This document shows positions 28,530 to 30,942 of a stretch of 34,271 nucleotides of DNA, piece after piece. Made by a program: the position numbers and the translations under genes. This stretch comes from Pseudonocardiales bacterium (lineage in GTDB: Bacteria > Actinomycetota > Actinomycetes > Mycobacteriales > Jatrophihabitantaceae): NCBI GenBank assembly GCA_003243915.1, contig QHCC01000041.1:53076-87346 (forward strand). The letters run 5' to 3'. Within the stretch, counting starts at the first letter, position 1; each line of letters opens with the position of its first letter. Below the pieces are notes generated by a model, which had not been told where the DNA came from, did not search any database, and saw only the letters and a program-made list of their open reading frames with translations.

Positions 28530-29537
28530 TCAGCTCAGCGTCGGGCTGTCGGTGTGCCCCGCGCGCGCGGCGATGACGCCGGCCTGGAAACGACTGGTGG
28601 CGCCAACTTGTGTCATGTAGTCGGCGATGTGGCGCCGGCAGGTGCGCACCGAGATCGATAACCGGCGCGAGATCGCTTCGTCCTTCTCGCCCTCGGCCAT
28701 CAGCCGCAGGATTGCCGCACGGGTGTGGTCGAGCTCGGTCTCGTCGCGCTGATGGTGGATCACCTCTTCCAGCGGCGAGGCCTCCGACCACAGCTGCTCG
28801 AATGTGGCGACGATCCAGGCGATGACATTCGGCTCGCGCACCACGACCAGGCCGTGCATGCCGGCGTCGTTGGTCGGGATCGGCAGCAGGGCGACGTCGC
28901 GGTCTACCACGAGGCTGCGGCCAGGCACCGACGAGGCGAAGCGGATCTTGGCACCGTTCTCGGCAAGCTCGTACAGATATGACCTGCTGGCCCGGTCGCG
29001 CAGTGCAGTGTGCTGATACAGAGCTCGGGTCCGGACCCCACGGCGCAGCGAGTACAGGTTCGCGATTCGGGTCCGGCTGTCGATGCGAGTGGTGGGCAGC
29101 CGGCCCGGCGCGACGGAGAGCAGCTCGTTCTGGCAGCGGTCGGCATAGTGCATCAGGACGTTGGCCATCTCGGTCTGATCTGAGATGACGTCGACGGCGA
29201 CGTCCTGGGCCGGCCCGCTGAGCACGGCATTCCAGTCGGGCACCAGTCCGCGGATGGCGTTGCGCCGGGCCTCGGCCGACGCGCGACGCGCCCCGAGTTC
29301 GAGGTCTTCGGCGCCCAGGACGATCGCCTCGGCCAGCATCGGGCTGATGGCGATGACCCGATCAGAGCCGTCCGGGCGGAGCAGACCCAGGTCGGTCAGG
29401 GCGGCCGCAGGTTTGTCCAGTTCGCCGGCTGTGCGACCGAGACTCTCGGCGACCTGCCCGAGCGTGCTCGCGGGTTGCGAGAGCAGGGCACGGTACAACT
29501 CCACCTCGAGGTCGCTCAGCTGTCCGGTTTCACTCAT
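28530..29537 (-). CDS. LuxR-type HTH regulator with TrmB-like N-terminal winged helix
   Basis: N-terminus LSDLEVELYRALLSQPASTLGQVAESLGRTAGELDKPAAALTDLGLL; C-terminus ILRLMAEGEKDEAISRRLSISVRTCRRHIADYMTQVGATSRFQAGVIAARAG (LuxR/GerE HTH). Confidence 0.88.
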   Translation of the reverse strand: MSETGQLSDLEVELYRALLSQPASTLGQVAESLGRTAGELDKPAAALTDLGLLRPDGSDRVIAISPMLAEAIVLGAEDLELGARRASAEARRNAIRGLVPDWNAVLSGPAQDVAVDVISDQTEMANVLMHYADRCQNELLSVAPGRLPTTRIDSRTRIANLYSLRRGVRTRALYQHTALRDRASRSYLYELAENGAKIRFASSVPGRSLVVDRDVALLPIPTNDAGMHGLVVVREPNVIAWIVATFEQLWSEASPLEEVIHHQRDETELDHTRAAILRLMAEGEKDEAISRRLSISVRTCRRHIADYMTQVGATSRFQAGVIAARAGHTDSPTLS

Positions 29538-29561
29538 CTCGCCATCCCGGAGTACGTGCCA

Positions 29562-29575
29562 GGCAGCTAACTGCC
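29562..29575. promoter_or_regulatory. Imperfect palindrome GGCAGCTAACTGCC in the regulator/peptide divergent intergenic region
   Basis: 12 of 14 positions match its reverse complement; 25 bp upstream of the regulator ATG. Confidence 0.45.
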
Positions 29576-29696
29576 AGTTGGAGGATTTGAATTGCACCCG
29601 ATAGCGCTGAATCCTATTCACAGCGCAGGATTTTCTGGGCATCGGCACCAGAAACCGGCGTGTCAAATGCGCCTAACTCCGATCAAAGGGGACAGA

Positions 29697-29873
29697 GTGA
29701 CTGTTGGTCTACGTCGCCGCGTCGCAAGTGTTCTCGCTTTGGCGGTGGGGTTCGGCGTCTGCATCAGCTCTACGCCTGCGTCGGCCACGCCGGTCCGAAG
29801 TCAGCCGACCACGACATCGGACAGTTCATACATCGCTCCCGTCGATCACCGTCTCGCAGACTGGTGGTGGTAG
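29697..29873 (+). CDS. Small secreted peptide precursor (58 aa) with C-terminal WWW
   Basis: GTG start preceded by AAAGGGGA; VTVGLRRRVASVLALAVGFGVCISSTPASA signal peptide with an ASA cleavage motif, then TPVRSQPTTTSDSSYIAPVDHRLADWWW and stop. Confidence 0.7.
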   Translation: MTVGLRRRVASVLALAVGFGVCISSTPASATPVRSQPTTTSDSSYIAPVDHRLADWWW

Positions 29874-30036: not shown

Positions 30037-30942
30037 ATGGCCGGTGTGACCGAGCTCGGGCTGCCCGACGGCCTCACCCATCTGCACAGCGGCAAGGTGC
30101 GCGATCTCTATCGCAGCGCCGACGGCCAGTTGGTGATGCTCGCGAGCGACCGCATCTCTGCCTTCGACCACATCCTGCGCCCCACCATCCCTGACAAGGG
30201 CCGGATTCTCACCGCGATGACGGTGTGGTGGTTCGAGCAGTTGGCCGACATCGTGCGCACCCACCTGCGAAGTGTGGACGACCCGCTGATCCCACCGCAG
30301 TGGCGGGGCCGGGCAATGGTGTGCACGCCGCTGGTCATGGTTCCGGTCGAGGCGGTCGCCCGCGGCTACCTGGCCGGCTCGGGGTTGCTGGACTACCGCG
30401 CGAACGGGAGCGTGTGTGGCCTGCCGCTGCCGCCAGGGCTGCGCGACGGCGACCGGCTCCCGGAACCGATCTTCACGCCCGCGACCAAGGCCGGCGTGGG
30501 TGAGCACGACCAGAACATCTCCTACGAGGCGGTGCTCGCCACGGTAGGCGCCGCCACCGCGGGGCGGGTCAAGGCGCTGACGTTGGCGATCTACGCGCGA
30601 GCTGCCGCCGTCGCAGCCGAGCGGGGCGTCATCCTGGCCGACACCAAGTTGGAGTTCGGCCACGATCCCGAGACCGCCGAACTCGTCCTCGGCGACGAGG
30701 CCCTCACCCCGGACTCGTCACGATTCTGGCCCGTCGAGCAGTGGCGGCCCGGTCGCGCGCAGCCGAGTTTCGACAAGCAGTACGTCCGCGACTGGCTGCT
30801 CTCGGATGCTTCCGGGTGGGACCGTGCCGCCGACACCCCGCCCCCCGCGTTGCCCGACGACGTCGTGGGCGCGACGCGAGCGCGCTACGTGCAGGCCTAC
30901 GAGCGGCTCACCCGGCTGCGCTTCGACGACTGGCTCGGGTAG
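30037..30942 (+). CDS. purC: Phosphoribosylaminoimidazole-succinocarboxamide synthase
   Basis: HSGKVRDLYRSADGQLVMLASDRISAFDHILRPTIPDKGRILTAMTVWWFEQL; VEAVARGYLAGSG; LADTKLEFG; PSFDKQYVRDWL. Confidence 0.97.
   Translation: MAGVTELGLPDGLTHLHSGKVRDLYRSADGQLVMLASDRISAFDHILRPTIPDKGRILTAMTVWWFEQLADIVRTHLRSVDDPLIPPQWRGRAMVCTPLVMVPVEAVARGYLAGSGLLDYRANGSVCGLPLPPGLRDGDRLPEPIFTPATKAGVGEHDQNISYEAVLATVGAATAGRVKALTLAIYARAAAVAAERGVILADTKLEFGHDPETAELVLGDEALTPDSSRFWPVEQWRPGRAQPSFDKQYVRDWLLSDASGWDRAADTPPPALPDDVVGATRARYVQAYERLTRLRFDDWLG

Follow-up and report, generated by a model that had tools for sequence, protein, structure and literature searches.

A candidate peptide-pheromone module in actinomycetes: secreted DxxW peptides beside TrmB/LuxR-type regulators

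Introduction

In the window, by which we mean the whole stretch of 34,271 nucleotides that was analysed, a LuxR-type regulator stands divergent from a very small gene with a signal sequence. What is the function of this peptide, and what does the regulator next to it sense or control? Quorum sensing by peptides is a familiar trait of Bacillota. The signals of Actinomycetota are typically small molecules made by enzymes (PMC10075063), a survey of RRNPP systems places peptide signals in Bacillota, and a 2026 review of quorum sensing mentions butyrolactones alone for Streptomyces.

Results

The propeptide gene and its orthologues

The first-pass annotation had proposed a 58-codon ORF with a Shine-Dalgarno sequence and a signal sequence, and this proposal was borne out at 29697-29873. 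The features of the gene are as follows:

29685..29692, plus strand: Shine-Dalgarno sequence AAAGGGGA of the peptide gene, identified from the sequence, its position conserved
29697..29873, plus strand: propeptide gene with GTG start, 58 codons and TAG stop; orthologues in L003-L011 and L038
29697..29786, plus strand: signal peptide, residues 1-30, with predicted cleavage after ASA (from the sequence; conserved between the window and L003)
29859..29870, plus strand: C-terminal core DWWW (D-x-x-W with x = W), which is DWWW in 10/11 orthologues, DIWW in L009 and DxxW class-wide
30037..30942, plus strand: purC, the conserved downstream neighbour (ORF listing and comparison of family neighbourhoods)

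The propeptide reads MTVGLRRRVASVLALAVGFGVCISSTPASA up to the predicted cleavage site and TPVRSQPTTTSDSSYIAPVDHRLADWWW after it, so that the predicted mature segment has 28 residues and ends in ADWWW. Propeptides were compared with Pfam and NCBIfam, neither of which holds a propeptide model, and matched no family above its curated cut-off; that of L148 gave a sub-threshold match to Phr_nterm (16.3 bits, cut-off 25). Between the window and L003, the sole comparison made, the peptide gene differs by 13 synonymous and 23 nonsynonymous codons.

The genome of the window is a 3.67-Mb assembly of 228 contigs that is 82% complete, and its relatives on public contigs are named Jatrophihabitans sp. or are Pseudonocardiales MAGs. 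Our ortholog set comprised 10 genomes of this family, including that of the window, and L038, a separately binned MAG labelled Streptomyces. The regulators of the family are 65-100% identical, and each of the 11 has a divergent ORF of 44-68 residues that bears a signal peptide. DWWW stands at the end of the peptide or at most two residues from it in 10/11 (followed by N in two and by GP in one), and DIWW takes its place in the remaining one; the stretch that links signal peptide and tail is conserved neither in sequence nor in length. That a short ORF with a D..WWW tail should be conserved together with the regulator had been set beforehand as a test of the pairing, and the family passed it. 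The opposite finding, a homologous regulator without a signal-peptide ORF, was made only in part: every regulator orthologue of at least 65% identity (10 genomes and L038) stands divergent from a signal-peptide ORF with a D(W/I)WW end, whereas at the sensitivity used no such ORF was detected beside many distant homologues or at the nearest orphan locus (L012:1498-2493), where the regulator is 54% identical and lies in a different neighbourhood without purC.

purC follows the family peptide gene wherever the contig extends far enough, and beyond the regulator there is usually an aminotransferase or amidase gene; purS also belongs to these neighbourhoods. Their comparison within the family revealed no conserved modifying enzyme and no conserved dedicated transporter or immunity gene beside the peptide gene. 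The codons GAYTGGTGGTGG gave 49 matches in 24 family genomes, 30 of them fetched as loci and 19 unfetched, several of the latter at the regulator locus itself. Every fetched match that ends a signal-peptide ORF belongs to this peptide gene; at one of these loci, L062, the contig edge leaves no more than the tail of the L042 peptide. DWWW as a DNA pattern is so common that by itself it cannot serve as a marker.

Domains of the regulator

The regulator had been described in the first-pass annotation as a TrmB-like winged HTH (wHTH) and a LuxR HTH separated by a middle domain. This description holds, with the LuxR HTH above and the wHTH below its Pfam cut-off:

28530..29537, minus strand: regulator of 335 residues, ATG at 29537, with TrmB-like wHTH, coiled coil, PLD-like sensor domain and LuxR/GerE HTH (Pfam, AF2, Foldseek)
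29349..29519, minus strand: N-terminal TrmB-like winged HTH, residues ~7-63 (weak Pfam TrmB/HVO_A0114 matches; AF2 model like TrmBL2/TrmB)
28839..29195, minus strand: middle PLD-like domain, residues ~115-233, proposed to bind the peptide (Foldseek matches to NucT, Nuc (1byr), Zucchini and the TrmB sugar-binding domain; covariation among homologues)
28572..28715, minus strand: C-terminal LuxR/GerE HTH, residues 275-322 (PF00196, 30.1 bits, cut-off 23.5)

As the orthologues begin at the position equivalent to the ATG at 29537, a longer version starting at TTG is disfavoured. The TrmB/HVO_A0114-like match falls near residues 7-58 and reaches 16.7 bits for Pfam TrmB, under the cut-off of 25.6, and the middle domain matches DUF7436 weakly. 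A sequence search of the PDB covered the LuxR HTH only. The AF2 model, built on a 14-member alignment, has a mean pLDDT of 78 and a pTM of 0.49, and for this reason its single domains are usable while their mutual arrangement is uncertain. Foldseek matched the model to TrmBL2 (E 6e-13; about 1e-12), TrmB and PLD-like proteins, and the PLD-like domain that follows the wHTH to 2f5t, 1byr and 6ehi. No TPR was predicted by Pfam or by AF2/Foldseek, and Pfam gave no match to an autoinducer-binding domain, the middle domain being PLD-like.

TrmB binds sugars, and its PLD-like domain is the part that binds the small ligand. The resemblance of the regulator's fold to that of TrmB therefore supports the idea that a peptide could serve as ligand of the PLD-like domain here.

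A palindrome between the two genes

Alignment of the intergenic regions of the family showed three shared elements, GTGCCAGGCAGCTAGCTGCCAG, TTTGAA and ATCCTATT, and gave two features:

29556..29577, plus strand: palindromic operator GTGCCAGGCAGCTAACTGCCAG, the proposed binding site of the regulator, conserved in 10/11 orthologous intergenic regions
29586..29618, plus strand: TTTGAA (29586-29591) and ATCCTATT (29611-29618), the likely promoter of the peptide gene (intergenic alignment)

The one region that lacks the palindrome is that of L010. A simple sigma-70 scan of the promoter region of the peptide gene found no match. The exact palindrome (0 mismatches) occurs once per genome in all 6 genomes tested, with a close variant at each such locus, and looser matches were in no excess over a reversed-pattern control in these genomes. 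Since the exact operator is confined to this locus, no wider regulon was found by these scans, which were pattern matching only.

Similar sites occur beyond the family. Scores of a weight matrix made from the family sites were raised upstream of distant regulator homologues relative to 880 control windows (Mann-Whitney p = 3e-10), and also downstream of them (p = 7e-5). The best cases, L081 and L084 (GTGTCAGGCAACAAGGTGCCAC), reached 22.6 bits, whereas no control window exceeded 10.6. In a paralogous subfamily, many members have a palindrome of their own (TCCTG-N6-CAGGA or similar), at a distance of about 95 bp upstream of the propeptide.

Secreted partners across the class

Homologues of the regulator (E <= 1e-25) were found in 110 of 247 Actinomycetes genomes, with up to at least 8 matches per genome, which is as many as were scored. 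They are rare in the phylum outside the class, and the non-class loci that were fetched had no partner. One fixed detection rule was applied both to the regions flanking 114 regulators that lie outside the DWWW set and, as a control, to 400 kb of DNA from the same genomes. Signal-peptide-like ORFs were present at 0.226 per kb in the flanks and at 0.055 per kb in the control. Trp occurred within the last 15 residues in 33 of the 51 flank ORFs and in 5 of the 22 control ORFs, and the mature part contained DxxW in 18/51 and 0/22, respectively (Fisher p = 7e-4). In the generalised form D-x-x-W(-G/N/T/Q/D), which the mature peptides take class-wide, the co-conservation of tail and regulator is therefore not limited to the family of the window. 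At the sensitivity used, most of the distant regulator homologues had no detected partner within 1-1.5 kb.

Tails of another type, among them CGNCW, CGVCW and CIGCW, were seen beside distant members. The small secreted peptides next to five distant homologues (L015, L016, L023, L026 and L152) end in CxxCW and are perhaps a disulphide-containing branch of one peptide family with the DxxW peptides. A like layout is found on annotated Streptomyces plasmids, where the small gene is labelled hypothetical protein (L072, WP_331733218.1; L073, WP_330315467.1; L240, L242, L243 and L244).

Repeat units and the sensor domain

Some propeptides contain several copies of the DxxW unit, for example DTGWG x3 in L083, DSGWN/D x5 in L148, DSGWT and DLSWS x7 in L154 and L217, and DSGWG and DSTWx x9 in L222 and L228. 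In a Streptomyces-type genus there are 2-9 copies per propeptide. A converse search of this genus with the L148 propeptide yielded 30 loci, 25 of which have the regulator within 1.5 kb; four of the other five are weak matches without a signal-peptide propeptide. The fifth (L238:1474-1800) encodes a secreted propeptide in which GAGWD occurs at least five times, and has no regulator within 1.5 kb; it is possibly an orphan or eavesdropping signal. A further core variant, the VIGWD-repeat propeptide of L236:1513-1782, stands beside a regulator and has no Asp three residues before the Trp.

Among 23 distinct propeptides, the two middle residues of the unit are identical in 187 of 188 within-gene repeat pairs and in 12.4% of comparisons between genes. 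Across repeats the D, x, x and W positions are 99-100% identical, the spacers 22-48%, and identical residues are often encoded by different codons (37% at the second x). That D-x-x-W stays constant despite varied codons and spacers indicates that the unit is kept by selection, or by conversion that affects the unit alone; part of the identity within a gene could come from homogenisation of the repeats through recent duplication or gene conversion. A core that is constant within a gene and changes between lineages would be the pattern expected of a signal with specificity variants.

We then compared the domains of the regulators in 24 repeat-type regulator-peptide pairs. Regulators whose peptides share the same DxxW have a PLD-like identity above expectation from their other two domains (+0.076, permutation p about 5e-4), with shared ancestry incompletely removed and the same-motif pairs being mostly DSGW. 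Neither wHTH nor LuxR HTH identity tracks the shared DxxW in these pairs. When pairs were matched on the identity of the other domains, 27/27 comparisons were positive and 0/1000 permutations reached the value. Of the 14 columns in which variation follows the motif best, 13 fall within residues 121-228; residues 139, 188, 191 and 220 are positions that follow it.

Two observations concern the surroundings of these genes. A conserved protein of about 105-111 residues (MTxPPDDRxFRREMATAYRSGWHFIDL...) is encoded directly after the propeptide in L148, L150, L154 and L209-L237; in most repeat-type loci its start falls on the stop codon of the propeptide or adjoins it, and the gene is translationally coupled. 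One member shows weak Rieske similarity (18.7 bits, under the Pfam cut-off), no such gene was found next to the other DxxW propeptides examined, and the protein is possibly a modifier, a chaperone or a co-signal. What looks like the tail of a heat-shock operon adjoins the regulator in L148:1-1249, with a MerR-type (HspR-like) gene and a DnaJ C-terminal gene.

Discussion

These findings make it probable, as judged from comparative sequence data, that the secreted DxxW peptide and the TrmB/LuxR-type regulator form a peptide-pheromone (autoinducer) module in which the regulator acts on the peptide's own promoter. The module is supported by the co-conservation of the pair and of the D(W/I)WW tail with unconserved spacers in the family, the conserved operator and promoter, the class-wide enrichment of DxxW ORFs, the matching repeat units and the covariation of the PLD-like domain. 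The signal peptide would direct export of the 58-residue propeptide, and processing would release either the mature peptide or a short piece of its C-terminus that contains DWWW. Uptake, presumably by an oligopeptide ABC importer, would bring this product back into the cell, where it would bind the PLD-like domain of the divergent regulator. The regulator would bind the GTGCCAGGCAGCTAACTGCCAG operator and switch the peptide promoter and probably its own, thus closing a feedback loop. This feedback would presumably be positive.

Other readings have to be weighed against this one. A Trp-rich C-terminus would also suit an effector, that is, an antimicrobial or envelope-active peptide made under the control of a regulator that senses something else, and the sole exact operator per genome, at the peptide promoter, makes the peptide the one evident target. 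We nevertheless consider an effector unlikely: the sensor-like domain covaries with the peptide core, matching repeat units and a very short invariant core with free spacers fit a ligand better, the core is acidic and not cationic, and no transporter or immunity gene is conserved beside the family peptide gene. Of the roles offered in the first-pass annotation, it is therefore the pheromone that gains over the antimicrobial, through the matching middle residues of the repeats and the covariation confined to the sensor domain, with direct sensing of the peptide as its presumed basis. Distinctly unlikely, in our view, is that the DxxW units are RiPP cores modified at Trp, with the regulator serving the cluster. 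Identical cores in multi-core propeptides do resemble multi-core RiPP precursors, the coupled Rieske-like gene of the Streptomyces-type subfamily makes peptide modification possible, and an HMGL-like gene follows the propeptide in L083. However, the family peptide gene has no conserved modifying enzyme, its downstream neighbour being purC, and the Rieske-like protein is under the Pfam cut-off and was not found beside the other DxxW propeptides that were examined. Since a signal may itself be a modified peptide, this reading overlaps with the pheromone.

Three Trp codons in a row before the stop, together with purC downstream in nearly all family members, bring to mind a leader or regulatory ORF, such as a Trp-codon attenuator for purC, instead of a secreted peptide. 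This is very improbable, as every orthologue has a signal peptide, the D is invariant in addition to the W, no terminator-like hairpin was found between the ORF and purC, and elsewhere the cores have one Trp each (DSGW, DTSW), come in 2-9 repeats and are not accompanied by purC. Many spurious ORFs arise in high-GC DNA, but conservation in 11 genomes and signal-peptide ORFs and DxxW tails far above control DNA leave next to no room for a chance ORF beside a LuxR regulator.

In its layout the proposed pheromone module resembles the RRNPP systems of Bacillota (Rap-Phr, PlcR-PapR, Rgg-SHP, PrgX), where a small secreted propeptide adjoins a dedicated cytoplasmic regulator and a short core, the presumed signal, varies by lineage. 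It differs from them in belonging to Actinomycetes, in propeptides that often have 2-9 units, in an acidic-aromatic DxxW core and in a receptor of TrmB-like wHTH, PLD-like domain and LuxR HTH. The module would work like RRNPP signalling without being a member, because its receptor has no predicted TPR and a different fold. Foldseek finds the wHTH, coiled coil and PLD-like domain, which make up the first ~250 residues, to be folded as in the archaeal regulators TrmB and TrmBL2, whereas the present regulator is only 14-17% identical to them, has an added C-terminal LuxR HTH and is paired with a gene for a secreted peptide. With LuxR-family quorum-sensing regulators and LuxR solos it has the C-terminal GerE/LuxR HTH in common, but it has no Pfam match to an autoinducer-binding domain and it is paired with a peptide gene in place of one for a LuxI-type synthase. 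No prior description of a DxxW peptide-regulator system was found in the literature searched, preprints and most subscription papers lying outside its reach.

A possible link to gamma-butyrolactone (AfsA-type) signalling of Streptomyces, which has a different chemistry and a different receptor family, lies in gene order. On the plasmids L072, L073, L074, L240 and L242 the regulator, mostly with a divergent peptide gene, is immediately upstream of an AfsA-related gene, which in L072-L074 is preceded by an operator-like site. The peptide pair may sit above butyrolactone signalling in the hierarchy. Neighbours of Streptomyces homologues include AfsA-related genes, an NRPS with MbtH, SARP/BTAD regulators and an ATP-grasp gene, which makes control of specialised metabolism plausible there.

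We lean towards a broader interpretation, in which actinobacteria across the class use DxxW peptides as one family of pheromones that has pherotype-like variants. The receptors would be TrmB/PLD-like/LuxR proteins whose PLD-like domain has turned into a peptide receptor, and the system would sometimes be placed upstream of gamma-butyrolactone genes and biosynthetic clusters. This looks like a widespread system of bacterial peptide communication that includes Streptomyces and many soil actinobacteria. If so, a ligand could be tested at once for the many orphan LuxR-type regulators that make up a large group, and antibiotic-producing actinomycetes would have a signal that is directly readable and synthesizable: four or five residues could be read from a genome, synthesized and supplied to cultures in an attempt to activate silent gene clusters.
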